From: a virus
IMG/VR virus record: IMGVR_UViG_3300012919_000046
Span: 1 to 21,044 of that record
Direction: 5' to 3' (one strand)
Length of the DNA stretch: 21,044 nt
Of the stretch, positions 4,981 to 21,044 are shown in pieces. A program made the position numbers and the translations under genes. The notes below the pieces were generated by a model. That model ran no database searches, was not told the DNA's origin, and saw only the letters and a program-made list of their open reading frames with translations. Numbering within the stretch: the first letter of the stretch is position 1; each line of letters opens with the position of its first letter.

Positions 4981-5817
4981 ATGAGTTTAAAAAACGTTAT
5001 CAAGGATGTAGGCGAGAGCATATTCAATAGAACATTTGGTAGACTACGAGGCGCAGGACTCGGTGATCTTAAAATAGCTAACGCTAGGGCCAAGTGGGGC
5101 GGACGTAACGATAAAAAAGATTGGCGTGTCAGATTGACTATCCCGACTAGAGCTAGTGCTCTTTACAACAGCATAATGGCTGGTAATGATTTGTTGAAGC
5201 CACTGGCACAATCCAGAGGCATGTTTTGGCCTTTGACTCCGTCTATGGTTATCCAACACAGTGCAAACTACAACGCATTGGCACAGACACATAGTAACTA
5301 TCCTTTCCAGGCTTATCAGAACTCACAAGTTGATCAAATGAACATAATTGGAGAATTCCCTGTGCAGAATCAACAGGACGCACAACATTGGGTGGCAACA
5401 ATTAATTTTTTAAGAACTGTAACGAAAATGTTTTTTGGTAGCCAGCAAGATCTCAAAGGAAATCCACCACCCATCCTACACTTGAATGGATATGGAGATC
5501 ACATGTTTACGAACGTGCCTGTTGTTGTTAACACTTTCAACGTAGAACTTAGATCAGGCATAGACTATATTTCAACAAAACAGAACACAACAGGCATAAG
5601 TCCAGATCTTAAAAAATTTGTTTTCGATGGAGGCTATGACGCAAATGAATTCAATATTGAACCATCGGGAGAATCACAGACCTGGGCTCCAACATTATCA
5701 AACATTTCTGTATTAGTGACGCCTGTCTACTCGAGAGATTCGGTTAAAAACTTTTCTCTCACCGAGTTTGCCCGTGGCAACTTGAACGGCAAGTCAGACA
5801 GGATTGGATTCATTTAA
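4981..5817 (+). CDS. Baseplate tail tube cap/initiator protein (gp48/gp54-like)
   Basis: The 278-aa protein belongs to a family I know from marine T4-like phages as the baseplate tail tube cap or initiator, the ring on which the inner tail tube polymerises. Recognisable segments are AKWGGRNDKKDWRVRLTIP (residues 37-55), FWPLTPSMVIQHSANYN (82-98), NIIGEFPVQNQQDAQHWVA (121-139) and PPPILHLNGYGDHMFTN (162-178), the last followed by a beta strand rich in Val. It is the first gene behind the late promoter and overlaps gp53 by one base (TAATG). T4 has two related ring proteins, gp48 and gp54; only one is in this window and I cannot say which it replaces. No signal peptide or membrane segment. Confidence 0.7.
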   Translation: MSLKNVIKDVGESIFNRTFGRLRGAGLGDLKIANARAKWGGRNDKKDWRVRLTIPTRASALYNSIMAGNDLLKPLAQSRGMFWPLTPSMVIQHSANYNALAQTHSNYPFQAYQNSQVDQMNIIGEFPVQNQQDAQHWVATINFLRTVTKMFFGSQQDLKGNPPPILHLNGYGDHMFTNVPVVVNTFNVELRSGIDYISTKQNTTGISPDLKKFVFDGGYDANEFNIEPSGESQTWAPTLSNISVLVTPVYSRDSVKNFSLTEFARGNLNGKSDRIGFI

Positions 5818-6116
5818 TGGCAAAGTATTCAAGGACATCTCCATATTTCAACACACCTCAGAGCTCTGAGGCATTGGGCTATTTTGTACCAAGGAATATA
5901 ACATCTGAGGATGACGACAGATCATACACTATTGAAAAGACATACGCTTACCGTCCTGACTTGTTGGCGTTTGACCTATACGGATCTCCAAGATTATGGT
6001 GGGTGTTCGCCCAGAGAAATCCAGACCAGATTGAAGATCCCATATATGATTTCAAACCAGGAGTGACTATTAAATTGCCTAAGCCGGCCAATGTGTCTCG
6101 CGATGTCGGAGTATAA
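5817..6116 (+). CDS. 53: gp53-like baseplate wedge protein
   Basis: The 99-aa protein carries the gp53 signature: a Tyr-rich start (YSRTSPYFNT), then YGSPRLWWVFAQRN (residues 55-68) and DPIYDFKPGVTIKLP (74-88). The pattern YGxPxLWWxxxxxNxxxxP, ending in a hydrophobic IxLP, is the LysM-like module that clamps wedges to one another in T4-like baseplates. T4 gp53 is 196 aa; this form is about half and retains just the core module. It overlaps the preceding stop by one base, with only a weak, distant AGGA upstream, so translation is probably coupled to the cap gene. The next gene begins two bases after its stop. Confidence 0.85.
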   Translation: MAKYSRTSPYFNTPQSSEALGYFVPRNITSEDDDRSYTIEKTYAYRPDLLAFDLYGSPRLWWVFAQRNPDQIEDPIYDFKPGVTIKLPKPANVSRDVGV

Positions 6117-6118
6117 CA

Positions 6119-8566
6119 ATGAGTCTGAAAAAAAGAAAAAAATACAGGCACGGTGTCAGGACTTCTAACAAAACAAATTTCTCAAAGTTTTTAGATAGCT
6201 TTACTAAAAGGTTTGGCGAATCTACAAAAAACTCAAGGGGACAAGTTAAAAAAAAACTTGAAAATTTAGTATCCACAGAACAAGTGGTCCAAGCTTTGAA
6301 AAAAAGCACTTTTGATTCTATAAAAGAAGATGGGATCTATAATTTCGTAAGTAATTATTATAAAGAACAAGACCAGGTCCAAACCGAAAATCCACTTCAC
6401 AAATACGCAACATACACCTATCTGTTTACACTCAGTGGACTACGGGAGAATGAGCTTGAAGATTTTAGTTTCCTATCAAACCCTGTTCATGATATACTAG
6501 CACGTTCTTCTGGCATAGGTGACCCTAACAACAGAGGGCAGGTTTATAACTCAGGTGACTTTATAGGGCCATTAAGAAGTAAAAAGGACCGAGCAAATAA
6601 GGCCTATAGGGATAGCATCGGAATACTGGGTCAAGGCAGAGATATATTTTTTGAAGATGTGAACATAGTCAGCACTGTCAGTCCAGGACCCGAAAGAGGA
6701 CTAGCCGATTTTGCGAGAATGGAATTCAAATTGCACGAGCCTTTCGGAATATCATTTATCGAAAAGGTCCGCGCCGCCACAAGGGTCAACGGCTATAAAG
6801 ATTATCAAGATGCCCCTTTGCTTCTGACTATTGAATTCAAGGGCTTCGACGAGGAAGGCGTTGAACTGCCGTCAAACATAATTAGAAAGATTCCTATTAT
6901 CCTAACGAGGGTAGATCTCGATGTCAACGAAGGAGGTGCGATATATGATATCAGTGCTACGAGATATCAAGACATAGCCTTTGATGATAGGTATAAATTT
7001 CCAAGGACAAAACTTTCGATACAGGCCGATACACTAGAAGAGGCCGCAGACCAAATATTGAAAGGATTGGATAAGCAGATGCAACAGGAGATCGACAATC
7101 ATTACAGGACTGTGAAGGATGAATATGTTATTCAGTTTGATCCACGTGTCTTGGATTACGCCGGTGATTTCACAGGCAAAGATTCCATACACGCATCAGT
7201 GGCACCAAAAGGATATTACGAAAATGGCGACTTTATGGGAGACATCTCAGGCCTAAGTTCAGACCTAGAGCCGCCGAGCAACAGCAATAGTAAGCCTATA
7301 GAGGTCAAAAAGATAGATGCTGAGATTACAAGCAACACCGCATTGACTAAGGTCATCGAAGATCTCGTTAGATCAACAGATGGTTTTGAGAACACTGCCA
7401 TTGATTTCTGGACTAACTATCTCAGAGGTGCAGGAGTTATAGGGGACAGTGAAAAAGCAACCAAGGAAACAGTTGGAAGCGTATTAAAAGATCAAAAACG
7501 ATTCAATAGTATATTACGTGAAAATCAATATGTGCCATGGTTCAAGATTAAGACAAGTGTAAAAACTCATTCTAACCAATTTGATCGTATAACCAAAATG
7601 CATAAGAAAACAATAGGGTACCATGTGATTCCGCACAAGATCCATGTGTTAAGATTTATTAAGCCAGGAATCAGTATTCCAACTGAGGACCTTGGTAACA
7701 AAGAGAATCAAGTAAGAAGAACATACAACTACATCTATACAGGTGAGAACACTGATGTGCAAAACTTGAGGATTAATTACAAAACCGCGTTCTATCAAAG
7801 AAATGTTGTTGACACCCCAGGACTGGTTGACGGAAATGTAATAAGAGAGACAGAGGCCAGCATAAGGCAACTAGGCGGAGAAGATTATCCAGAAGAACTT
7901 ACGCCATTGAGGCAGTATCCAAGCACGATCAAAAGTAGGATGGTGGTTAATAGGCTAGATAGACAAGATGACAGAACATCTGAGATGTATGATTATCTGA
8001 CAAATCCAATTGCTGATATGATGAATATTGATCTGGAGATACTGGGAGATCCAGCATACATATGCCAGGATCAGTTTATACCTATGACAACAGATGGCAA
8101 CAGATTAAGTAATGGTCTTGACTTTTCGGGAGACTTCGAATCCTTTAACGCAGATGATTATAGTCCATTGATTTTATTGAACTACAGGTTGCCTGATGAC
8201 ATCAACGACGAGACCGGTGTCACTTTTGAAAAAGATACGCAGACACCTTCAGAAAATTTATTCTTTTCTGGAATTTACCAGATTGTAAAAATAGAAAGTA
8301 GTTTCAGCCAAGGCCAATTTACGCAATCTTTGAATTGCGTAAGGCTAAACAATCAAAATGGGAAATCACAATACCAGACACAGTTTTCTACAGATAAAAA
8401 ATTGGTTTCCAAAGGAAGTACAAAGAACAACGAGAATATTTCCTCAGTTGTTAAAAAGCCAAAATATTCTTGGTGGTACTATATCAAGAATGGTGGTAAG
8501 AAAGCTGTAGAACGTAGGGATGAAGCTATAAAAGAAGGAATTAACCAGGCAGAAGACGATAGATAA
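6119..8566 (+). CDS. Large baseplate hub-like structural protein (gp27-like role)
   Basis: The 815-aa protein is a virion structural protein placed directly before gp5, where a hub protein is expected. A basic N-terminus (KKRKKYRHG) leads into hub-like strands YATYTYLFTLSGL (residues 96-108), LHEPFGISFIEKVRAAT (205-221), and RKIPIILTRVDLDVNEGGAIYDISAT (256-281, quoted in part: IPIILTRVDLDVNE). Near the C-terminus are LEILGDPAY (639-647) and FFSGIYQIVKIESSFSQGQF (715-734), typical of gp27/gpD-type hubs that form the trimeric ring holding the needle. T4 gp27 is 391 aa, so this one is about twice as long. GGAG lies 8 nt before the ATG. It overlaps gp5 by one base. The hub role is inferred from position and these strand patterns; homology to gp27 is not proved. 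An A-rich run (6126-6140) follows the start. Confidence 0.65.
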   Translation: MSLKKRKKYRHGVRTSNKTNFSKFLDSFTKRFGESTKNSRGQVKKKLENLVSTEQVVQALKKSTFDSIKEDGIYNFVSNYYKEQDQVQTENPLHKYATYTYLFTLSGLRENELEDFSFLSNPVHDILARSSGIGDPNNRGQVYNSGDFIGPLRSKKDRANKAYRDSIGILGQGRDIFFEDVNIVSTVSPGPERGLADFARMEFKLHEPFGISFIEKVRAATRVNGYKDYQDAPLLLTIEFKGFDEEGVELPSNIIRKIPIILTRVDLDVNEGGAIYDISATRYQDIAFDDRYKFPRTKLSIQADTLEEAADQILKGLDKQMQQEIDNHYRTVKDEYVIQFDPRVLDYAGDFTGKDSIHASVAPKGYYENGDFMGDISGLSSDLEPPSNSNSKPIEVKKIDAEITSNTALTKVIEDLVRSTDGFENTAIDFWTNYLRGAGVIGDSEKATKETVGSVLKDQKRFNSILRENQYVPWFKIKTSVKTHSNQFDRITKMHKKTIGYHVIPHKIHVLRFIKPGISIPTEDLGNKENQVRRTYNYIYTGENTDVQNLRINYKTAFYQRNVVDTPGLVDGNVIRETEASIRQLGGEDYPEELTPLRQYPSTIKSRMVVNRLDRQDDRTSEMYDYLTNPIADMMNIDLEILGDPAYICQDQFIPMTTDGNRLSNGLDFSGDFESFNADDYSPLILLNYRLPDDINDETGVTFEKDTQTPSENLFFSGIYQIVKIESSFSQGQFTQSLNCVRLNNQNGKSQYQTQFSTDKKLVSKGSTKNNENISSVVKKPKYSWWYYIKNGGKKAVERRDEAIKEGINQAEDDR

Positions 8567-10854
8567 TGACAGGAATTATAGACACACACGATAACCAAAA
8601 AGATTTTGACAACAAGCTGGCGGAGAAAAATCCTGGTCCATATGTTGGACGTGTGAAATACGTTGAGGATCCACTTAACATGGGAAGGCTTGGAGTAAAC
8701 ATTCCTGAACTTTCCAAGACAGATGACCCAACGGCAGAACAAGTTATATGGTGCCAATACCTATCACCTTTTTACGGAACAAAAAGTGGTGACGCACTGT
8801 CTGGGAACGACGAAGCCGATTTTAAGGATGCCGGACATAGTTATGGTTTCTGGGCCATTCCACCCGACATCGATACAGATGTTCTAGTGATATTCGCCAA
8901 AGGTGAAGCTTCTAGACAAAATGCTTTCTGGATCGGTTGTATTCAACAGCCACTTACAAATAAAACTATTCCTGGATATGGCGCAGATACCTATCATAGA
9001 GAATCAACAGGTACAACGCCAGGTGCTGATGAGCAAAGCACTCCAAGGGAAAGACAAATATTACGTAACACGGGTGTAGATGCACCCAACTATGGCACAG
9101 ATGTTTTACCAGTTGGAGATCGTAATCGGGCTTCTGTTAATAACGCCACAACACTTGCAGGAGCAAAAAATATAAGATTCCCGGTCAATAAAATCCAAGC
9201 GGAACAATTGCTAGAACAAGGACTAATTCAAGACACGACCAGAGGTACCACTACTTCGTCAGCCAGACGTGAATCGCCTAGTGCTGTCTTTGGATTTAAC
9301 ACTCCTGGAAGGATCAGGCCAGACTCTAGGCAAAAGCCGATAGGAATAGGTGGGCAGAATGTAGCCACAGACAGGTTACCTGGACATAGTTTTGTTATGG
9401 ATGATGGTGATGCAAATGGCGTCAATCAACAGATAAGGTTGAAAAGTGCTTCGGGGCACCAGATTCTAATGAATGACACAGAAGGTGTCATCTACATAGC
9501 TAACAAATCTGGGAACAGCTGGATCGAAATGAGCGATGAAGGAAAAATTTATATATATGCTCAGGACGGATTTAATTTACGTAGTGATGGAAACTTTGAT
9601 CTACACAGCGGTTCTGATATCAACTTCCACGCAAAAAATGATATAAAATTTACGGCAGAAGGCAATGTTATCAACAATGCTGACAGCTACTTGATGAACA
9701 TGGGTCGACAAGGAATCTTCAATAGCTCACAAGCAGGAGTAATAGGTGATTATGCATTACAAGGTATAACTGCATACACAGGTGGAAATGTGCTAATTGG
9801 AGCAGGCTCGGCTCCAGAACCACCACAGAATCCAAATCAGAGAGCAGGTGCCAATGCTAGTCGAGGTGGAGGGCAAATTCATCTAGCAGGACCACAGGTC
9901 CACTTCAATTCGATCAAGGCACAAAAAACGTGGGGACCTAGTTGGTTATCTCCTGAACGGGTAGGAATAGTAACAGATGATTCACAGAATGATGTTAACA
10001 TCACAGTTGACGATGGTGGACTCTTGGAAGCTAATACCAAGAAGACAAAGACAACAGTGCCAAACCTAGTCACGCACGAACCATTTACCCGTGCACCGTC
10101 TGCCATTATCGAAACAGTATCACAGTGGGAAGATCCTGTAAAATGGAAAGAGCTATCAGAAACTCCTGGCACATTGGAATATATGGCTATGCAAAACAGA
10201 AAGAGTCCTATCGAATCTATCAAAAATCTACAATATCTTGCTGATTCGAAAAAATTTTTAGCAAACAATGGTGGAACAACTAAACAGTTGGAAAAAGCTA
10301 ACGCACTTTTATCTAATTTCAAAAAATCTTATAACAAAATTTATAATGTTAGCACTGTACTACCTAATCTTTCAAAAGATAATTTACGTAATTTAATTGT
10401 AAACAAAGTAACGGCAGGAAGAATCACATCAATATCAGACATATCAAGATTTGTAGGTGGAGGAAATATAAACAGCTTGATAGGTGGAGACATTGGCACA
10501 GTGGCTAGAAGCTTTGTGCAGGGATTCAAATCACGTGGCCTAATATCACAGGTGCCTCCTAGCTTAAGGGGAACATTCAAGGGCAACCTATTACAGATAG
10601 GTAGTCAACTAAAGGCAGGAATAGCCAGGGCTTTCACTTCATTTTTTAGTGACGTAAGATTAAAAGAAAATATTAGTCATGTTGGTGTATCGGACGCTGG
10701 AATAAACATTTACAGGTTTAAATACAAAGGAGTCGACGGTGTGTTCGAAGGTGTCATGGCAAACGAAGTTCCATGGGCAACAACACTATCTGAAAATGGT
10801 TATTACATGGTCGATTATAGCAAAGTTGACGTTGACTTTAGGAGGATTAATTAA
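8566..10854 (+). CDS. 5: gp5-like baseplate central spike (needle) protein with C-terminal S74 chaperone domain
   Basis: The 762-aa protein forms the trimeric membrane-piercing needle. Residues 24-130 are the gp5/GpV OB-fold: PYVGRVKYVEDPLNMGRLGV, then YGFWAIPPDIDTDVLVIFA and AFWIGCIQQP. A polar linker follows (135-270). Residues about 275-450 are a beta-helix with short repeats such as GHQILMNDTEGVIYIANKSG and GKIYIYAQDGFNLRSDGN. The last 68 residues are a peptidase S74 intramolecular chaperone: SDVRLKENI at 695-703, with predicted catalytic Ser695 and Lys700, then IYRFKYKG and FEGVMANEVP. In this family trimerisation triggers self-cleavage before the Ser. T4 gp5 has a lysozyme between OB-fold and needle; I see none here. 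Preceding and following genes overlap by one base each. Confidence 0.88.
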   Translation: MTGIIDTHDNQKDFDNKLAEKNPGPYVGRVKYVEDPLNMGRLGVNIPELSKTDDPTAEQVIWCQYLSPFYGTKSGDALSGNDEADFKDAGHSYGFWAIPPDIDTDVLVIFAKGEASRQNAFWIGCIQQPLTNKTIPGYGADTYHRESTGTTPGADEQSTPRERQILRNTGVDAPNYGTDVLPVGDRNRASVNNATTLAGAKNIRFPVNKIQAEQLLEQGLIQDTTRGTTTSSARRESPSAVFGFNTPGRIRPDSRQKPIGIGGQNVATDRLPGHSFVMDDGDANGVNQQIRLKSASGHQILMNDTEGVIYIANKSGNSWIEMSDEGKIYIYAQDGFNLRSDGNFDLHSGSDINFHAKNDIKFTAEGNVINNADSYLMNMGRQGIFNSSQAGVIGDYALQGITAYTGGNVLIGAGSAPEPPQNPNQRAGANASRGGGQIHLAGPQVHFNSIKAQKTWGPSWLSPERVGIVTDDSQNDVNITVDDGGLLEANTKKTKTTVPNLVTHEPFTRAPSAIIETVSQWEDPVKWKELSETPGTLEYMAMQNRKSPIESIKNLQYLADSKKFLANNGGTTKQLEKANALLSNFKKSYNKIYNVSTVLPNLSKDNLRNLIVNKVTAGRITSISDISRFVGGGNINSLIGGDIGTVARSFVQGFKSRGLISQVPPSLRGTFKGNLLQIGSQLKAGIARAFTSFFSDVRLKENISHVGVSDAGINIYRFKYKGVDGVFEGVMANEVPWATTLSENGYYMVDYSKVDVDFRRIN
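10648..10851 (+). other. Peptidase S74 intramolecular chaperone autoprocessing domain of gp5
   Basis: This is the coding segment for residues 695-762 of the needle protein. SDVRLKENI supplies the Ser-Lys dyad spaced five apart, as in other autoprocessing chaperones of trimeric beta-helical proteins. GVMANEV and MVDYSKV match the usual downstream strands ending in a Tyr-Ser-Lys-Val motif. Cleavage would be expected just before Ser695 and would release a 68-residue fragment. Confidence 0.8.
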
Positions 10855-11276
10855 TGGCGTACGGCAGTAGTTCGGGATCAAGCGGAGGAGAAAAAAGCAA
10901 GTCATCAGTGACTTTTAAGGGCTTCTCATCACGTACCACAGGACAAAGTTTCAAAGTGTATGATTTTGAATGTGCAAAACAGGATCTAATCAATAGGTTA
11001 TCGGTTCGTAAGGGAGAACGTGTTGAAAATCCTGAATTTGGAACCATAATATATGATGCCATATTCGAGCCATTGACAGAAGAACTAAAAGAAGCAATAG
11101 TTGAGGATGTTACGGAAAATCTAAACGCTGATCCACGTATAAGCACGGATGAAATTATACTTACAGAGGCAGATAGAGGTATTGCCATCCAGGCAACTAT
11201 CAAATATGTGCCATTGGACATAACCGAAAAACTACGTTTTCAGTTCGATGAAAACGCTTTGCTACGCCTATCTTAA
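10854..11276 (+). CDS. 25: gp25-like baseplate wedge protein
   Basis: The 140-aa protein is the gp25/GpW wedge component, which joins gp6 to the hub and helps start sheath assembly. The conserved core is INRLSVRKGERVENPEFGT (residues 46-64) followed by an acidic helix FEPLTEELKEAIVEDV. T4 gp25 is 132 aa, so the length is normal. The first 18 residues (GSSSGSSGGEKSKSS) form an unusual Ser/Gly-rich leader that recalls the Ser/Gly tail on the neighbouring gp6. AGGAGG about 8 nt before the ATG is the strongest ribosome site in the structural cluster, even though the start also overlaps the gp5 stop by one base. Confidence 0.9.
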   Translation: MAYGSSSGSSGGEKSKSSVTFKGFSSRTTGQSFKVYDFECAKQDLINRLSVRKGERVENPEFGTIIYDAIFEPLTEELKEAIVEDVTENLNADPRISTDEIILTEADRGIAIQATIKYVPLDITEKLRFQFDENALLRLS

Positions 11277-11318: not shown

Positions 11319-14300
11319 ATGGCCACAACAGATAGACAAAACAGATTATTAGTTGCCGAGGATTGGCGTAAAATTTACCAAGCTTTCCAACAGGCTGATT
11401 TCAAAAGTTACGATTTTGAAACACTGAGACGAACAATGGTTGCCTATCTACAGGAAAACTATCCTGACGATTTCAATGATTTTGTGGAAAGTTCAGAGTA
11501 TGTTGCGTTGATAGACCTAATTGCCTACATTGCACAATCACTTTCTTACAGAGTGGATTTGAACGCTAGGGAAAATTTTTTAGAGACTGCAGAAAGACGT
11601 AATTCAATACTTAGACTTGCAAGACTTATCAATTACAATGCGAAAAGAAACCAGCCTGCTAAAGGCTTACTTAAAATAGATTCAATTTCTACGTCAGAAG
11701 ATGTATTTGATTCTTCAGGCACCAATATTGGAAATACAACAATTATTTGGAATGATTCGGCAAATGCAAATTATAGAGAACAATTCATAGCAATATTGAA
11801 TGCCGCCAATGTAACGGGTCAGACATTCGGAAGTCCAAGAGAAAAGGGTAGCATAGGCGGAGTAGACACTGAAGTTTACACAATGTCCTCAAACCAAACT
11901 GACTTGCCAATATTTGGTTTCAGTGCAAGTGTGGGGGGTACTGATAGAAGTTTTGAAGTAGTACCAAGTCAGATTACAGATTCAGAAGACATCTATGAAA
12001 GTCCACCAATTGATGGAAGTGGATTGTCTTATTGTTATCGTACAGACGGCGGTGGAGATTCGTCCAACAACACTGGTTACTTTTTCTTGTTCAAGCAAGG
12101 CACTTTACAGTACACAGATTTCAATGTCGACCAGGCAGAAACAAATTTCATACAGCCAATCAATGTACCAAATATTAATAACACGGATGTATGGTTATTC
12201 AGACAAGACGAATTAGGATTGCCAATACAATTATGGAAGCAAGTTCCAGCAATGTCTGGCAACAATGCAATTTACAATTCATTGTCAGCAGATGAGAGAT
12301 TAATTTATAACGTTGTAACTAAAGCGGATGATCAAATAGATTTAGTCTTTGGAGACGGAAACTTTGCAGATGTGCCTCTAGGTAGTTTCAGAACTTACTA
12401 CAGAGTGAGCGATAATGCAAAATTTGCCATACAGCCTGCGGACATGAGAGGTGTGCAAATTAGTGTTCCTTACACAGATAAAAATGGCGCAACACAGAGA
12501 ATAACAATGGTGATGAGCCTTAAGGCATCAATTTATAACTCTGCGGCAAGTGAAAGCAATGATTCAATTAGGGAGAAAGCTGGACAAGTATACTACTCAC
12601 AAAACAGAATGATAACAGCAGAAGATTATCAAGTTGTTCCGTTGGGTGCGTCACAAGAAATTATAAAAGTAAGATCTGTAAACAGAACTGCATCCGGTAT
12701 TTCAAGAGCAAAAGAAATTTTAGATCCAACCGGTGCATACTCTAATGTTTCAGTGTTTGCAGAAGATGGTATATTGTATAGAGAAGAATCAACGCAACAG
12801 TTCAGTTTTAATTTTGCCAATAGAAGTCAGATCAATTCTACTATTAACACTGACATTGAATCAAAATTAAAAGAAGCATATGCACGTAATTTTTATTATC
12901 TCAAATATGGAACAAAAAATTTAGCAACGTTAAATGCAACATGGAATTCAACAACTACAGGAACTAACACCAACACAGGATATTTCACTGCTAACGGTCC
13001 TTTAGCTATAGGATCATCTGCAACATCAAATTTAAAATATGCAAAAGTTGGTGCTCTTGTTAAGTTTATATCACCTGATACACGAGAATTTTTAAATGAT
13101 ACTTTAGTGACTGCAGGCACAGATCTTGCAGAAGACAGGAAATGGGCAAAAATTGGGTCTGTCACAGGAGATGGGGCGAACAGTGGCGTTGGCAACCTTG
13201 ACACAGGTGAGGGACCAGTTACCTTAGCATCCATAATACCTAATGGATGTAAAGTTGATAGTGTTATTCCTAATTTCACAACAACTTTTTTACAGACACT
13301 TAAAACAGATTTAATTGATAGGATTGAAGGATATGAAACTTTTGGTATAAGATATGATGTTGATACGGAAACGTGGAAAGTGATCACTACTACAAATTTA
13401 AGTGATAGTAGTATTTTCAGTCTTAATAATGCAGGAGACACCTCTGGTGGAAACTTAGATGCTAGTTGGTGGTTCAAGCTAACAAATGACGGAAACACAT
13501 ATACAGTTACGTATAGAAAACTAGATTATATTTTTGAGTCAGAATCACAAAACAAGTTTCATTACGATAAACAAGAAAAAATTTACGATTACAAAACAGG
13601 AAGAAGCGTAAGGGACACAGTAAAACTTCTTAAAACAAACAGTATAGTATCAACAGGAAACAGTGTTGGATACCCTATTACGTGGTCAATAGAAGATACA
13701 GTGACTGAGTCAGATGGCTTTCAAGATAATAGGAAAGTTAAAGTTGGATTTTTTGATTCCGACGATGACGGCATAGTTGACAATCCTGAACTATTTGACA
13801 TCATAATTGAGCCTGAAACAACTATTAGTAACAAGTTTGTATTCTCAGAAAAATATTTGTCCTATAATAATATTGAAAGATATAGGCCATATGCGGCTAC
13901 AAACTTTGTAGTGTCTAAAAATGAATCTGATATTAATCTTGCAACTACAAGCTATTCTGATGGCCAACTTTTTTATTTTTATGATGAAAGTGAAGATGTA
14001 ATTAAGAAATACGACGAAGATACTAATACACTAGTAACAAGTACAGATTATATTGCAAGACGTGGTAGAAGCAGTTTAAGTTTCCAATACAAACATCATG
14101 CAGGACAAGAGACAAGGATTGATCCTAGTGTATCTAATATTGTAGATGTATATTTCTTAGAGAGAACATACGATAACCTATTTAGAATATGGCTACAGGA
14201 CGGCGGGAACAAACCTGCACCAAGCACTAGTGATCAACTAAGGATTGCTTACGGTAGCTACATAAATCCATTAAAATCATTATCGGACCAAGTGGTGTAT

Positions 14301-14807
14301 CATCCTGTTAGATACAAAATATTATTTGGAAATAATTCGGATGAGCAACTACAGGCTACATTCAAAGTTGTGAAAAATCCAAAAACCAATGTCAGCGATG
14401 CGGTTATAAAAACACAAATTATCGGCGCAATAAATGAATTTTTCGCTTTAGATAATTGGGATTTTGGAGACACTTTTTATTTTACGGAACTAGCAACTTA
14501 TGTACACAATAGATTAGCTCCAGATTTACTTACTTTATTAATTGTTCCAAATCAAACAGGACAAAGTTTTGGGTCTTTGTTCCAAATAGATTGTGCATCA
14601 GACGAAATATTCATCAGTGGGGCCACCGTTGATAATGTTGAAATAATTAGTGCCATAGGTGCAAACCAAATAGTAGCATCAGGTACGGTTGTGTCTTCAA
14701 CAACATCAACGTCAAGCACAACATCAGGTTCAGCAGTATCAGGTTCCACTACATCAGGTTCAAGCTCGTCAGGATCGTCCGGCGGAAGTAGTGGGAGCGG
14801 ATATTAA
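11319..14807 (+). CDS. 6: gp6-like baseplate wedge protein
   Basis: The 1162-aa protein is the gp6/gpJ wedge component that forms the inner iris ring of the baseplate. The N-terminal core is typical: VAEDWRKIYQAFQQADFKSY (residues 12-31), then FVESSEYVALIDLIAYIAQS (55-74), SYRVDLNARENFLETAERRN and ARLINYNAKRNQPAKG. A second core segment around 935-1000 includes HHAGQETRIDPSVSNIVDVY and the C-terminal gpJ-type region INEFFALDNWDFGDTFYFTE. T4 gp6 is 660 aa; the extra length is mainly inserted Thr/Ser/Asn-rich beta domains (about 540-850). One insert has an EF-hand-like loop at 813-824 (DSDDDGIVDNPE). The protein ends in a Ser/Gly/Thr repeat tail (1124-1162). It overlaps the next gene by one base. 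Confidence 0.9.
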   Translation: MATTDRQNRLLVAEDWRKIYQAFQQADFKSYDFETLRRTMVAYLQENYPDDFNDFVESSEYVALIDLIAYIAQSLSYRVDLNARENFLETAERRNSILRLARLINYNAKRNQPAKGLLKIDSISTSEDVFDSSGTNIGNTTIIWNDSANANYREQFIAILNAANVTGQTFGSPREKGSIGGVDTEVYTMSSNQTDLPIFGFSASVGGTDRSFEVVPSQITDSEDIYESPPIDGSGLSYCYRTDGGGDSSNNTGYFFLFKQGTLQYTDFNVDQAETNFIQPINVPNINNTDVWLFRQDELGLPIQLWKQVPAMSGNNAIYNSLSADERLIYNVVTKADDQIDLVFGDGNFADVPLGSFRTYYRVSDNAKFAIQPADMRGVQISVPYTDKNGATQRITMVMSLKASIYNSAASESNDSIREKAGQVYYSQNRMITAEDYQVVPLGASQEIIKVRSVNRTASGISRAKEILDPTGAYSNVSVFAEDGILYREESTQQFSFNFANRSQINSTINTDIESKLKEAYARNFYYLKYGTKNLATLNATWNSTTTGTNTNTGYFTANGPLAIGSSATSNLKYAKVGALVKFISPDTREFLNDTLVTAGTDLAEDRKWAKIGSVTGDGANSGVGNLDTGEGPVTLASIIPNGCKVDSVIPNFTTTFLQTLKTDLIDRIEGYETFGIRYDVDTETWKVITTTNLSDSSIFSLNNAGDTSGGNLDASWWFKLTNDGNTYTVTYRKLDYIFESESQNKFHYDKQEKIYDYKTGRSVRDTVKLLKTNSIVSTGNSVGYPITWSIEDTVTESDGFQDNRKVKVGFFDSDDDGIVDNPELFDIIIEPETTISNKFVFSEKYLSYNNIERYRPYAATNFVVSKNESDINLATTSYSDGQLFYFYDESEDVIKKYDEDTNTLVTSTDYIARRGRSSLSFQYKHHAGQETRIDPSVSNIVDVYFLERTYDNLFRIWLQDGGNKPAPSTSDQLRIAYGSYINPLKSLSDQVVYHPVRYKILFGNNSDEQLQATFKVVKNPKTNVSDAVIKTQIIGAINEFFALDNWDFGDTFYFTELATYVHNRLAPDLLTLLIVPNQTGQSFGSLFQIDCASDEIFISGATVDNVEIISAIGANQIVASGTVVSSTTSTSSTTSGSAVSGSTTSGSSSSGSSGGSSGSGY
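13755..13790 (+). other. EF-hand-like calcium-binding loop in gp6
   Basis: Residues 813-824 of gp6 read DSDDDGIVDNPE, which fits the 12-residue loop DxDxDGxxxxxE with oxygen ligands at positions 1, 3, 5, 9 and 12. The surrounding sequence is beta-rich, not helical, so it would be an isolated or thrombospondin-like calcium loop and not a true paired EF hand. Confidence 0.5.
14690..14804 (+). repeat. Tandem 15-bp repeat coding the Ser/Gly/Thr tail of gp6
   Basis: ATCAGGTTC recurs at 14723, 14738 and 14753 with exact 15-bp period, and a decayed copy, TCAGGA, follows at 14769. It encodes pentapeptides of the form xSGSx (TSGSA, VSGST, TSGSS, SSGSS). The stretch before it is Ser/Thr-rich. It is probably a flexible tail and could vary in copy number between relatives. 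Confidence 0.7.
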
Positions 14808-17800
14808 TGGCTGATAACGAAACTAACGCTCTTACAAACCAAGAAGTTGTTAAACAAGGTTCTGCCGAACTGCGTAGAACAGTTCAGCACCTACCAGCTT
14901 TCTATAGGACAGACGCCAACCAAAGATTCCTTTCAGCAACTCTAGATCCTCTTGTACAAAAAGGATCTCTAGATAGGTTAGATGGCTTTATTGGTCGCCA
15001 AGACGCATACACACGAAAAGCTACTGACAGATATATTTCAGCTACAAGTAGAGATAGATTAGCATATCAACTTGAGCCAACAGTAACATACACAAAATTA
15101 GACACAACTAGTCTTAATCCAGAAGATCAAGTTGAGTTTAGTGCAACTTATGATGATTACATAAATCAAATCAAATACTTTGGCGGAAAAGTTGACAACC
15201 ATGATAGGATTAACAAAGAAAAAGTTTACAGTTGGAATCCCGCTATCGATTATGACAAACTTGTAAATTACAGAGAATACTACTGGCTCCCTGAAGGTCC
15301 AAATGCCATAGAAATAGCTAAAGTCGGGCCTGGTGTAGTTGCGGAGTACAAAGTTACAAATGTTGTGAAAGGTGCATACAACTTCAGCATACAAGATGGC
15401 ACGAACAATCCTATCCTTAGATTATACAGGGGCAACACATATAAATTTAACATTGACGCTAAAGGACATCCTTTCTGGATAATGACTGAGCCTTATAAAG
15501 ATAAAATTGCGGCAGATGGATCCACCTCCACAATATATTCATCCGGAGTTACAAATAACGGTAGTGATAATGGTATAGTAACATTTACTGTGCCAACAAA
15601 CGCTCCAGATACACTTTATTATCAATGTGGCAACCATGATGCCATGTACGGCTCTATTTTAATTAAAGATGTAGAGACCACAGATAAAATTGATCCAGAG
15701 AAAGATATTATCGGTGCCATGAATTACAGTGTTGATACCTTAGATTTATCCAATGGTATGAAAATAAAATTCGATAGCACTAAAGTGTCATCTACATATC
15801 AAAATAAAGAATATTACATTGAAGGTATAGGTGATAAAATTACATTAACAGATGTTGCAAGTCTTATAACGCCAGGTAGCTATTCAAAAGAATTCACAGT
15901 TGGTTATGATTCTTTCGTGTTTGATCAGCAACCATATTCGAAAGCATTTTACAGACCTCAAGATCACGATTACATTACAATTAAACGTGACTCTCGTGAT
16001 AAAAATGCTTGGTCGAGATATAATAGGTGGTTCCATAAATCAATTATAGAAGAAGTTGGTAGGGTAAATGGATATACCGCAGAATTGAAAGAGACAGATA
16101 GAGCAAAAAGACCGATAATTGAATTCGATAGTGGCTTGCAATTATACGATCATGGAACTGTCGCAAAAAATCATATTACACTGATTGACACGGTGCAGAC
16201 CGATGCATTTTCAAACGTTGTTAATCAGCCAGGCTACATTATAGATGGCCTACCATTGACAGATGGAATGAGAGTTATGTTTACAGCAGATACTGATCCT
16301 ACTGTTAAAAATAAAATTTATGAAGTAAGCTTTATCATAGGAAGTGACTCATCCGAAACAATAGCACTCACGCCAACTTCTGATAGTGCACCAGTAAGTA
16401 ATGAGTCATTGTTTGTTGAGTTCGGCACTGATAACCAAGGTAAAACTTTTTTCTATGATTCGTCTAGTACCACTTGGAAAGAATCACAGCAAAAATCCTC
16501 GGTGAACCAACAACCGTTGTTTGCAATGTTCGACAATAATCATGTATCATTTGACGATGCAACTACATATCCAAATTCTTCATTCGAAGGTGCAAAAGTA
16601 TTTGCGTTTGCAACAAGTGAAACGGCAACAAAAGATACCGTACTAGGTTTAAAAGTTAAGTACAACACGATCAATAACATTGGTGATATAGTGTTTGAAA
16701 GTGATCATACGTCTGGCACTTTCACATACAAATCCGGAACAAGCACACTAACAAAAAATTTAGCCGAAGGCCACCTTCATTATACCACATCATTATCAAC
16801 CCATAATAACAAAAGTGCTTGGATCGAAAGAGAAGTAGATAGTAAACAGCGTGTTGTTAGGACTTTTATTGCGGATAGTAATGAAAAACAATTTTTCCAA
16901 ATTGACTTTTATAAAGAGTCAGTTAATATCAGCGACCTGGAGATAGCAGTAAGTGTAAATGGAATATATAAAGACCTAACCACAGATTATACGATTGTGG
17001 ATGGATCGACAAACAAATATGTTAAATTCAATAAAGAACTTGATATAGATGATCAGGTTAAGATAGTTGGGTACAGCTCAAGCAAAAAAGTAGATGCAAA
17101 AGGCATCTATGAAATACCAGAAAACCTTGAGACCAACGCTGAAAATATTCAACTTGGCACATTTACTTTCGGTGAAGTTGTAGGGCACGTCAAAGATATT
17201 GTAGAAAGAAATTCAGATGTAACCGGGGTCTATCCGGGAGTATCAAATCTAAGAGATAAGCCTAATGCAAGATTAAGAGGAGGTAAAATTAAACAGCATC
17301 AAGGATCACTTTTACCTGCGATGTTCGGATTAGTTGATCAACAAGCAAACGTAATTAAAGCTATTGAATTTTGTAATAAAGAATATGAAAAATTTTATGA
17401 TGCATTCTTGACTCTAAACACTGGCAATGCATATGAAGGTGTTGTAGTTGATCGTGTTGATGAAATATTGAAGAAGATCAATCAAGGCAAAAACAACTCA
17501 TTTGCTTTCTATTATGATGATATGATAGGTCATGGCGAGAATGTTTCAATAAGAACTTACAATGTGCTAGGATCAAGCCAGACAGAATACGCATTAGACT
17601 CACAGCATAGTATTTCAAAATTAAGCAATAGGGCAGTTTATGTGTATCTTAATGACGTCCAGCTAATTTTGGGACAGGACTACACTTTTAGCACAGAGGA
17701 CGATAGTCTTACAATCACTACTACTTTGGCCGAAGGCGATACCGTTATTATCAAAGATTACCCAGACACATCTGGCAGTTACATTCCTCCTACTCCAACA

Positions 17801-20800
17801 AAATTAGGAATGTATCCAAAATTTAAACCTGAACAGTACACCGATAACAGCTACCAAACTGCAACATCGGTTATTAGAAGACATGATGGATCTATAATCA
17901 AATCCTTTGGTGATGAAAGAGATGACTTAATACTCGAATTAGAAAAGAGAATTTACAACAATTGTAAAATCAGCTATGACGCGACACTTCTTGACTTTAA
18001 TGAAGTGATGCCAAGTGCATTTACATCAACTGACTTCAGCTTACAGGATATTACTGATGTTATGTCAACAGATTTTTACATATGGGCTGGCGCCAACGGT
18101 GTTCAGTACATCACAAATTCAACATTTTCAGAAGGATCCCCTTTCACTTATAACTATTCCCAATCCAAAAATAGGTTAACTGGAGAAAACCTACCAGGGT
18201 ACTGGAGAGGAATTTACAAATATGTGTATGATACAGATACTCCTCATACTACTCCTTGGGAAATTTTAGGACATTCTGAAAAGCCATCTGATTGGGAGAC
18301 AACATACGGTGCTGGTCCTTACACTTCAGGAAATGACCTGCTTTGGAACGATATCGCAATACAAACCGGTAGGTATGGAAAGCCAAGCATTAAAGATTAT
18401 CTACCTGTGGACGCATCAGGAAATTTAAGAGACCCAATATCTATAGGATTAGTTGATGCACTTGATATTCCAGGAAGAAGTATAAGTTGGAAGTTTGGAG
18501 ATCATTCGCCGGCAGAAACAGCATGGAGAAGATCTAGTTCGTATCCGTTCACAGTAATTAAAACACTAGCACTTACACGACCTGCAAAATTCTTTTCAGT
18601 TTATTTCGATAATAGTAGATTAATCAAAAACGTAAGTGGTAACTTAATTGATTCTGATACAGGCGTCAGACAAAATTTAGCAAAAGCAAAATATCATTTA
18701 GAAACTGAAACAAATAATTCTACCGGAGTTGTGACAAGGTACAGCACATCAGGTTATCAACCTTTGGTTGTCAATCATCTTATTGCGAGGAATCTTGATA
18801 CTATTAGTTTCTTCTACGATAAAATGAAAGGATTAAAAGTACAGCTATCCCACAAATTAGGTGGCTTCACAGACAAAGGCAATTTAAATGTCCTGACCGA
18901 TTCTGTTTCGCCGGGATCAACAGCAGGCAGTAAATTTATCCCAGATGAAAATTATAAATTATTGTTCAGGACAAGTAATCCTGTTGACACATATTACTAT
19001 TCTGGCGTTCTTATAGAAAAGAATACCGATACTACATTAGACGGAAGCACTTTAGCTGGCGGCTACAAAGTACTTGGATATTCATCGACTAACCCAACAT
19101 TTAATTTTTATTACCCTATAAGAGGAAATCAAGGACAAAAAATTAGGATAGGTGAAGTTGAAGTAGCAGAATATCCAAATTATTCTGATACGGTGCAGAC
19201 TATTCCATATGGACATGTTTTTGAAACAATTCAAGATGTAGCTGATTTCTTATTTGGTTATGGCAGATATCTAGAAAAAAGAGGATTTAGGTTCAACAAG
19301 TATTCTGGTGAAATTAAAAAAGTTCTAAATTGGAGTAATGCTGTTTCTGAATTTTTATTCTGGACAACACAGAACTGGGCTCCAGGAAGTGCAGTTACAG
19401 TATCCCCAGGGGCGTCTGGGATCGAGCTTGAAACAAACAACGCAGTTGTAGGTAGACTAATGAATCTCAGTGGTGACTATAGTATTTTAGACGCTGGAGG
19501 CAGAAAGATAGATATAAAGGACATTAGTACTAAAAGAGTAGGAACAACTTTTGACTTAAAAATAAAAGATCCAGATGTTGGATTATACAATATTGTCATG
19601 AACACTGTTCAAAAAGAGCATTTGCTTATATTTGATAACAACACAGTGTTTAATGATGTAATATATGATCCGTACTCAGGATTCAGGCAGGAAAGACTGA
19701 AACTTGTCGGATGGAAGACAGGAAACTGGAATGGTGACTATTATGCTCCTGGTTTTATTTTTGATGCCGCAAAAATTAAGTATTGGACAAGAAACACTGA
19801 CTACAGCATAGGTGACACAGTGGAGTATCAAGGTAGATATTATGTATGTAAGATAAACCATAACAGCTTATCTGAATTTGATAACAATAATTGGACCATA
19901 AAAGATGATAAACCAACAGCAGAACTTATTCCAAATTTTGATTATAAAATAAGTCAATTCAACGACTTTTATAATTTAGAAACAAATAATTTTGATGAAT
20001 CACAGCAGAACCTAGGACAAAGATTGATAGGTTATCAATCCCGTGATTATTTACAAAATTTATTTGAGAACGATGTATCACAATACAAATTTTATCAAGG
20101 TTACATTAGAGAAAAAGGCACGAAAGCGGCCATAGATAAACTTCTAAAGGCCAGATATGAGAATCAAGATATATCACTTGATATATTTCCTGAATGGATG
20201 ATTAGGAGCGGCAATTTTGGAAACACAGATTCTGTACAAAACATACAATTTGTTTTGAACAAAAATGAAATAGTTGCTAATCCGCAAAGCATAGAACTTT
20301 TTGATAATACAACTTTTACAAAAAATTATGTAAGAAGTCTTGGAATAGCAAAACAGAACTTTTATCATGATCCTGTTGACTACAATGCCGCAGTAACATT
20401 TAAAAAACATGATTATTCCAAGGAAGGTGTGAACAGAGATAATATTCAAAAAATAAAGACTGCAGGGTATCCTCAGATAAATCAGGTACAAAGAACAGTC
20501 TTTGACATAGATCAATTATTAGATATCGATGTATCTACCTTTCAACCTAATGACCTTATATGGGTAGCAAACAAAACAAATAAGGACTGGGACGTGCTTA
20601 AGGTAATGCACGGTGGCGTCAATATTGAAAGTTTACAGGCTGTGAACAATGCCACACAGATGAAAGTGATATTTAATGACTCACATGGTCTTAGTGCCGC
20701 CTCGGGGACTAGCACCGCAGACTATTTTGCAATAACCAATGCTCAAGTTGTTGATCTTAACGGGGTATACAAGGTTCAGACAGTGGTTGATCATAAAACA

Positions 20801-21044
20801 CTTTTAGTTGATTTCGACGGTGTTGTGACATCATTACCTAGCATTGGTGACAATTCAACAGCTGACAGTTACGGTAATCTATACAAATTTATTTCTGTAA
20901 GAATATCTTCAATGGATAATGTTAATGATAGACTTGCTTACAGTGATTATGATGATAAAAACACTGCACTAGAAGTCAAGGGCGATAAAGTTTTTGCAGA
21001 TGCTGATAGTTCTGGTTTATGGCGTGTGTACGAAAAACAGAATC
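14807..21044 (+). CDS. Giant baseplate wedge protein (gp7-like), 3' end outside the window
   Basis: The frame opens with ATG at 14807, overlapping the gp6 stop, and stays open to the window end, giving at least 2079 residues. T4 gp7, next after gp6, is 1032 aa. The N-terminus (LRRTVQHLPAFYRTDANQR at 22-40) resembles tail proteins that contact gp6/gpJ. Inserted modules follow: a cupredoxin-like domain (about 185-290), two related beta modules (711-759 and 943-988), the marine-phage segment YIPPTPTKLG (992-1001) with DLILELEKRIYNN after it, and a CBM5/12-like module (1660-1696). FYQGYIREKGTKAAIDKLL (1762-1780) resembles the C-terminal gp7 segment around FYSTKGIEAS. The gp7 role is inferred from position, size and that segment; it may combine wedge and peripheral or fibre functions. 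No signal peptide or membrane segment. Confidence 0.8.
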   Translation, partial: MADNETNALTNQEVVKQGSAELRRTVQHLPAFYRTDANQRFLSATLDPLVQKGSLDRLDGFIGRQDAYTRKATDRYISATSRDRLAYQLEPTVTYTKLDTTSLNPEDQVEFSATYDDYINQIKYFGGKVDNHDRINKEKVYSWNPAIDYDKLVNYREYYWLPEGPNAIEIAKVGPGVVAEYKVTNVVKGAYNFSIQDGTNNPILRLYRGNTYKFNIDAKGHPFWIMTEPYKDKIAADGSTSTIYSSGVTNNGSDNGIVTFTVPTNAPDTLYYQCGNHDAMYGSILIKDVETTDKIDPEKDIIGAMNYSVDTLDLSNGMKIKFDSTKVSSTYQNKEYYIEGIGDKITLTDVASLITPGSYSKEFTVGYDSFVFDQQPYSKAFYRPQDHDYITIKRDSRDKNAWSRYNRWFHKSIIEEVGRVNGYTAELKETDRAKRPIIEFDSGLQLYDHGTVAKNHITLIDTVQTDAFSNVVNQPGYIIDGLPLTDGMRVMFTADTDPTVKNKIYEVSFIIGSDSSETIALTPTSDSAPVSNESLFVEFGTDNQGKTFFYDSSSTTWKESQQKSSVNQQPLFAMFDNNHVSFDDATTYPNSSFEGAKVFAFATSETATKDTVLGLKVKYNTINNIGDIVFESDHTSGTFTYKSGTSTLTKNLAEGHLHYTTSLSTHNNKSAWIEREVDSKQRVVRTFIADSNEKQFFQIDFYKESVNISDLEIAVSVNGIYKDLTTDYTIVDGSTNKYVKFNKELDIDDQVKIVGYSSSKKVDAKGIYEIPENLETNAENIQLGTFTFGEVVGHVKDIVERNSDVTGVYPGVSNLRDKPNARLRGGKIKQHQGSLLPAMFGLVDQQANVIKAIEFCNKEYEKFYDAFLTLNTGNAYEGVVVDRVDEILKKINQGKNNSFAFYYDDMIGHGENVSIRTYNVLGSSQTEYALDSQHSISKLSNRAVYVYLNDVQLILGQDYTFSTEDDSLTITTTLAEGDTVIIKDYPDTSGSYIPPTPTKLGMYPKFKPEQYTDNSYQTATSVIRRHDGSIIKSFGDERDDLILELEKRIYNNCKISYDATLLDFNEVMPSAFTSTDFSLQDITDVMSTDFYIWAGANGVQYITNSTFSEGSPFTYNYSQSKNRLTGENLPGYWRGIYKYVYDTDTPHTTPWEILGHSEKPSDWETTYGAGPYTSGNDLLWNDIAIQTGRYGKPSIKDYLPVDASGNLRDPISIGLVDALDIPGRSISWKFGDHSPAETAWRRSSSYPFTVIKTLALTRPAKFFSVYFDNSRLIKNVSGNLIDSDTGVRQNLAKAKYHLETETNNSTGVVTRYSTSGYQPLVVNHLIARNLDTISFFYDKMKGLKVQLSHKLGGFTDKGNLNVLTDSVSPGSTAGSKFIPDENYKLLFRTSNPVDTYYYSGVLIEKNTDTTLDGSTLAGGYKVLGYSSTNPTFNFYYPIRGNQGQKIRIGEVEVAEYPNYSDTVQTIPYGHVFETIQDVADFLFGYGRYLEKRGFRFNKYSGEIKKVLNWSNAVSEFLFWTTQNWAPGSAVTVSPGASGIELETNNAVVGRLMNLSGDYSILDAGGRKIDIKDISTKRVGTTFDLKIKDPDVGLYNIVMNTVQKEHLLIFDNNTVFNDVIYDPYSGFRQERLKLVGWKTGNWNGDYYAPGFIFDAAKIKYWTRNTDYSIGDTVEYQGRYYVCKINHNSLSEFDNNNWTIKDDKPTAELIPNFDYKISQFNDFYNLETNNFDESQQNLGQRLIGYQSRDYLQNLFENDVSQYKFYQGYIREKGTKAAIDKLLKARYENQDISLDIFPEWMIRSGNFGNTDSVQNIQFVLNKNEIVANPQSIELFDNTTFTKNYVRSLGIAKQNFYHDPVDYNAAVTFKKHDYSKEGVNRDNIQKIKTAGYPQINQVQRTVFDIDQLLDIDVSTFQPNDLIWVANKTNKDWDVLKVMHGGVNIESLQAVNNATQMKVIFNDSHGLSAASGTSTADYFAITNAQVVDLNGVYKVQTVVDHKTLLVDFDGVVTSLPSIGDNSTADSYGNLYKFISVRISSMDNVNDRLAYSDYDDKNTALEVKGDKVFADADSSGLWRVYEKQN
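15360..15676 (+). other. Cupredoxin-like domain within the gp7-like protein
   Basis: Residues about 185-290 form a beta-rich unit running from YNFSIQDGTNNPILRLYRGN through DAKGHPFWIMTEP to NAPDTLYYQCGNHDAMYG. His221, Cys274, His277 and Met280 occupy the order of type 1 copper ligands (His, then CxxHxxM on the last loop). The CxxHxxM spacing is shorter than in plastocyanin, which has CxxHxxxxM. Copper binding is possible but not shown. Confidence 0.65.
19784..19897 (+). other. CBM5/12-like putative carbohydrate-binding module
   Basis: Residues 1660-1697 match the short chitin-binding-type pattern: Trp1660, then Tyr1666 and SIGDTVEYQGRYYVCK, ending NNNW at Trp1696. The core WxxxxxYxxGDxVxYxGxxYxC with a closing Trp is typical of CBM5/12 modules that bind polysaccharide. 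In a baseplate it could help adhere to cell-surface sugars. Confidence 0.6.

Follow-up and report, generated by a model that had tools for sequence, protein, structure and literature searches.

A cupredoxin domain with a putative type 1 metal site, inserted in a gp7-like baseplate wedge protein and shared with other phage tail proteins

The window (the whole stretch of viral DNA analysed here, 21,044 nucleotides of IMG/VR record IMGVR_UViG_3300012919_000046) ends in a long open reading frame that stands behind a series of baseplate genes, as follows.

5817-6116: gp53, which precedes the gp7-like gene
8566-10854: gp5-like hub, which also precedes the gp7-like gene
10854-11276, + strand: gp25-like baseplate wedge subunit (PF04965 and phrog_261), part of the context
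11319-14807, + strand: gp6-like baseplate wedge subunit (phrog_10646, 2.6e-288), the upstream neighbor that fixes the context
14807-21043, + strand: gp7-like baseplate wedge protein, its ORF open at the window end, 2,079 amino acids seen

With gp53, the gp5-like hub, gp25 and gp6 ahead of the gp7-like gene, the genes follow the T4 order 53-5-25-6-7, and given that order, gp7 is expected after gp6, exactly where this ORF lies. The protein is a homologue of the virion protein gp355 of phage PA5oct, whose record is marked ESI-MS/MS. A phmmer search of the whole protein against PDB gave no match to the solved T4 gp7 at E<1. The label gp7 is therefore based on the order of the genes and on homologues among the virion proteins of other phages, PA5oct gp355 for one, and we write "gp7-like" throughout.

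Several of these proteins carry further recognizable segments. Residues 1660-1689 of the gp7-like protein (19784-19873 of the window) match a chitin-binding type 3 unit (CBM_5_12, Pfam 2.8e-6), and a relative from a Pseudomonas phage is annotated with a chitin-binding domain of the same kind. The C-terminal part of the gp5-like hub contains an SDVRLKENI stretch resembling the S74 chaperone domain (phrog_6121), which is unusual for a hub, and the gp6-like protein ends in a low-complexity tail of Ser, Thr and Gly, about 45 residues long (14660-14804).

Near its N-terminus the gp7-like protein contains a cupredoxin domain. Its extent and four candidate ligands are given below, with conservation taken from 94 representatives below 70% identity, chosen from 470 domains that we collected from viral contigs, phage records and bacterial genomes.

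15338-15691, + strand: cupredoxin domain as modeled, residues 178-295 (AlphaFold2, Foldseek, VIA-align and profile matches)
about 15344-15679, + strand: cupredoxin core, residues about 180-291 of the gp7-like protein
15467-15469, + strand: His221, putative N-terminal copper ligand in a GHPF motif, 95.7% conserved, with silent CAT/CAC variation
15626-15628, + strand: Cys274, putative copper ligand, 95.7% conserved
15635-15637, + strand: His277, putative copper ligand, 95.7% conserved
15644-15646, + strand: Met280, putative axial ligand, probably also structural, 98.9% conserved and retained where the other three are lost

His221 lies in the context GHPFWI, and Cys274, His277 and Met280 lie together in YYQCGNHDAMYG. 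The composition of the protein (4 Cys, 32 His and 20 Met in 2,079 residues) predicts 0.0006 C-x2-H-x2-M motifs. An earlier, sequence-only reading of this DNA had placed a complete set of type 1 ligands at these four residues of the ORF, and all four are found there. The extent it proposed, 15360-15676 (residues 185-290), falls inside the domain and is somewhat too narrow: the first modeled strand begins at about residue 179, and the unit spans about 15338-15679. Cys274 is the only Cys in this domain, and exactly one Cys is present in 88 of the 94 representatives; a disulfide role for Cys274 was considered and is ruled out because it is the lone Cys of the domain in those 88 members.

That this is a genuine domain, above chance, follows from a Pfam score over the cut-off, a match to a phage protein family, the occurrence of relatives in 350 phage records, and the near-universal presence of the four residues. 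The Pfam match is to PF25489 (At5g54830-like), at 28.6 bits against a cut-off of 27 when the domain is scanned alone and at 23.9 bits, below the cut-off, in the whole protein. Among 92 family members 39 match this model, the best at 9e-12, and many members fall below the cut-off; PF25489 is named after a plant membrane protein, and its curated name is silent on copper. The C-terminus of PHROG 677 matches the domain at 5e-22. As a single-sequence phmmer query against PDB the domain matched only antibody chains. A profile of 14 divergent members matched 58 PDB chains at E<10, the great majority of them blue copper proteins, including plastocyanin (6.9e-5), copper nitrite reductase (1.1e-4) and amicyanin (0.008), as well as rusticyanin, auracyanin and pseudoazurin. 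The same kinds of blue copper protein were matched by a 92-member profile, and the Pfam Copper-bind model was touched by 14 of the 92 members.

An AlphaFold2 model of residues 178-295, computed from an 84-row alignment that was built without rows from annotated phage records, has eight strands (pLDDT 89.4, pTM 0.84), in keeping with the 7-8 strands of the Greek-key beta-sandwich of cupredoxins. When residues 1-420 are modeled, only the cupredoxin and the segment that follows it reach good confidence. The best Foldseek match in PDB is rusticyanin (E 2.8e-5), with moderate TM-scores of 0.4-0.58 across the matches, and VIA-align gives Z-scores of 10.6 for the nitrite reductase of Hyphomicrobium (HdNIR), 10.1 for rusticyanin and 9.7 for auracyanin A; cupredoxins make up 50 of the 50 VIA-align matches listed. 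The fold proposed by the sequence-only reading, a cupredoxin-type beta-sandwich, is thus what structure prediction and fold search returned, and the cupredoxin identity is borne out by the profile matches to blue copper proteins together with the fold matches of the model.

In the model, His44 (His221 of the protein) sits just ahead of strand 46-49, and Cys97, His100 and Met103 (residues 274, 277 and 280) sit in the loop that joins the final pair of strands, 92-97 and 104-110. As modeled, then, the His and the Cys/His/Met group occupy the places of the known copper ligands in the cupredoxin topology. The sequence-only reading had named a fold that sets the four residues far apart as a refutation, and the modeled topology bears on this indirectly. 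The automatic alignment sets Cys and Met on known ligands and leaves the N-terminal His unplaced, and hhalign against rusticyanin aligned the C-terminal loop alone. The automatic alignment with plastocyanin is out of register by two positions at the first His (G-F-P-H in plastocyanin versus G-H-P-F here), and we set that alignment aside for judging the N-terminal His. Rusticyanin, with its sequence taken from PDB, reads G-F-G-H85-S-F, and the N-terminal His can be matched to it through a rusticyanin-like GHxFxI motif; one close gp7 relative has GHSF in place of GHPF. From this rusticyanin GHxF motif, and from the predicted position before a strand, we infer that His221 is equivalent to a copper ligand.

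Among known cupredoxins, rusticyanin (ligands His85, Cys138, His143 and Met148) and auracyanin A have the same fold (Z 10.1 and 9.7), with a GHxF His that precedes a strand and with the Cys, His and Met ligands carried by the last loop. However, rusticyanin has a C-x4-H-x4-M loop and is a free periplasmic electron carrier, whereas the phage domain has C-x2-H-x2-M and lies within a virion protein. Amicyanin (profile match E 0.008) shares the C-x2-H-x2-M loop followed by a G-x-I/V-x-V strand, but it works as a free carrier in the periplasm, with methylamine dehydrogenase as its partner, and the context of its N-terminal His is unlike that of the phage domain. Plastocyanin proper is characterized by a C-x2-H-x4-M loop and a PHN motif at the first His, and the domain in the window has neither (C-x2-H-x2-M, GHPF).

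Copper and other metals have been connected with phages before. Cyanophages carry plastocyanin (petE) as an auxiliary metabolic gene (PMC6722890); this too is a phage-borne copper protein, but it serves photosynthesis as a soluble carrier produced inside the host cell and is not a part of the virion. Metal in phage tails has also been proposed, as HxH iron sites in T4 gp37 and in alterophage tail fibers, in connection with an iron "Trojan Horse" idea (PMC11705849). Those are His-only octahedral iron sites, unlike the phage cupredoxin site, and no HxH motif is present in residues 178-295. Our literature search, which covered few subscription journals, found no paper describing a cupredoxin domain in phage virions. 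The cupredoxin kind is already known; what looks new is its setting, in baseplate and fiber proteins where selection preserves a full type 1 site.

All four ligands are present in 419 of the 470 relatives. Over the 99 alignment columns scored in the 94 representatives (70% redundancy), Met is conserved in 98.9% and the His, Cys and His in 95.7% each, so that the four rank 2, 4, 5 and 6, with Met second; when the cellular relatives are scored by themselves, the ranks are 2, 3, 4 and 6. A non-ligand Tyr and a non-ligand Pro equal the ligands in conservation. The sequence-only reading had named free variation of the four residues as evidence against a metal site, and the alignment shows none, the ligands being among its six most conserved columns. 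These figures are inflated to some degree, because several of the scans were seeded with peptides containing ligand residues. The bacterial-genome scan used two patterns, the first free of ligand residues and the second holding the Cys only, and all four residues occur in 75 of the 76 domains it recovered. The C-x2-H-x2-M spacing is found in 88 of the 94 representatives, and two members keep their ligands with other loop lengths, C-x4-H-x2-M and C-x2-H-x3-M (L238:4992-5288 and L388:692-1021). Known cupredoxins, with their C-x(2-4)-H-x(2-4)-M loops, also vary in the length of this loop. Among close relatives the ligand codons vary silently (CAT/CAC 59/22 for the first His, TGT/TGC 64/17 for the Cys, CAT/CAC 68/13 for the second His), and it is therefore the amino acids that selection keeps.

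The strongest single piece of evidence is a natural loss of ligands. In a clade of 46 sequences around Synechococcus phage S-B05 (S-B05-type tail fibers), His, Cys and His have been lost together and replaced by Phe, Ala and Thr/Val (the ligand-less domains of this type are loci L402-L448 and L094, not L446). Of the 11-15 most conserved columns, exactly these three are lost and the rest are kept, Met included; the joint loss has a P of 0.002-0.006, for one event. Intact sisters of the clade retain all four ligands, and at least two further, partial losses lie elsewhere on the tree. Because exactly those three residues were lost, the trio behaves as one unit and the fold appears not to need it. 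The clade is also a ready natural control without the ligand trio.

The domain is an exact insertion with respect to PA5oct: the homologue from this Pseudomonas phage runs directly from the segment ending at about residue 178 to the one starting at about 298. It lies at the same place in all 80 of 80 close marine orthologues of the gp7-like protein. The same module forms the C-terminal 100 residues of cyanophage gp9 (PHROG 677, "baseplate wedge tail fiber protein connector"), a different carrier protein in which the domain is terminal, whereas in the gp7-like protein it is internal. It also occurs in tail fibers of cyanophages and T7-like Prochlorococcus phages, and it is present in a pelagiphage and in a Methylophilales phage. 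The earlier statement that such segments occur in marine phage structural proteins is thus right, and the range extends further, to bacterial exported proteins. Cellular copies are found in flavobacterial lipoproteins that begin with a CHRD domain and end with the cupredoxin (L184-L220) and in short stand-alone bacterial proteins with signal-like N-termini; judged by such sequence features, many cellular relatives look exported. Proteins with two copies in tandem occur in the PS1 clade and related marine bacteria (L179, L182, L189, L192-L194, L196). In BFVD a similar predicted fold is seen in "beta-sandwich" proteins that stand alone and come from giant viruses of pithovirus-like and marseillevirus-like kinds (A0A481Z6J5, A0A481Z7Q7, A0A481YVH3). 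Viral and cellular copies are intermixed on the tree, which is weakly resolved, and the module is one that is swapped among carriers and probably faces outward.

Taken with the model and the ligand conservation, the four residues suggest that the gp7-like protein likely contains a true metal-binding cupredoxin site, complete and of type 1, and the metal would probably be copper. We propose that a cupredoxin domain with a short-loop, amicyanin-like C-x2-H-x2-M site, inserted between two scaffold segments of the protein, would fold independently and bind a single ion, in most likelihood of copper, through His221, Cys274, His277 and Met280 during or after assembly, and that the bound metal would be under selection. 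Zinc, iron or nickel in place of copper seems doubtful. Cupredoxin sites can take zinc when expressed in bacteria, which speaks for such a substitution, but His-Cys-His-Met is the classical copper set and the profile neighbors are copper proteins. It is likewise improbable that the domain is a plain beta-sandwich spacer without metal, in which the ligands are fossils or serve folding only. The retention of Met where the other three are lost, the equal conservation of Tyr and Pro, and the persistence of a large clade without His, Cys and His all fit a spacer. However, that clade dropped the trio and yet kept the fold residues, which weakens the spacer explanation and speaks against a folding need for the three residues; a useless trio should not persist in 89 of 94 divergent representatives, viral and cellular, and it would be strange for an extracellular protein to retain a lone free Cys that does nothing.

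The role of the domain is much less sure than the putative metal site; the sequence-only reading had offered binding of a metal from seawater, redox sensing and a spacer as possible roles. Because the module has been swapped among gp7, gp9, tail fibers and bacterial exported proteins, the most likely role would be that of a metal-locked, outward-facing domain that stabilizes its part of the tail, contacts the host surface, or both, and does not act as a carrier in an electron chain. A more specific form of surface contact, somewhat unlikely though the best placed of the other roles, is a metal-dependent adhesin, whose bound copper or metal-organized tip would contact a surface ligand or a metal-uptake receptor of the host. 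Such an adhesin would do with copper what the iron "Trojan Horse" is proposed to do with iron, and it resembles the proposal for tail-fiber iron ligands in marine phages (PMC11705849) but with a different site. The location of the module in gp9, in tail fibers and in the gp7 insertion agrees with an adhesin, as does that proposal, and selection on the ligands would be accounted for if the metal tunes the tip. Type 1 sites, however, normally bury the metal among four protein ligands with little space for one from outside, and the same domain is common among bacterial exported proteins. Electron transfer by Cu(I)/Cu(II) cycling, whether sensing the redox state of the cell surface or quenching oxidants, seems very unlikely: the full ligand set with an axial Met is that of electron carriers, and the best structural matches are redox proteins, but no partner domain or second redox center is evident within the window, and a fixed position in the baseplate is unlike that of a mobile carrier. 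Since no partner is seen, metal-locked stability or host-surface contact is favored over electron transfer.

Known cupredoxins serve as electron carriers, as oxidase domains and, in a few cases, as metal chaperones. Copper in the baseplate and tail proteins of abundant ocean phages, bound in a complete type 1 site that selection preserves, would come as a surprise, and many ocean phages may carry copper bound on their tails. A bolder form of this idea, which we consider unlikely, is that marine phage tails hold redox-active blue copper centers in an exchangeable module used for host attachment or for triggering the baseplate change; if it were true, phages would constitute a copper-binding pool in seawater. 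A complete type 1 site would also offer a first way into the study of an unnamed domain that recurs in cyanophage gp9, tail fibers and gp7.
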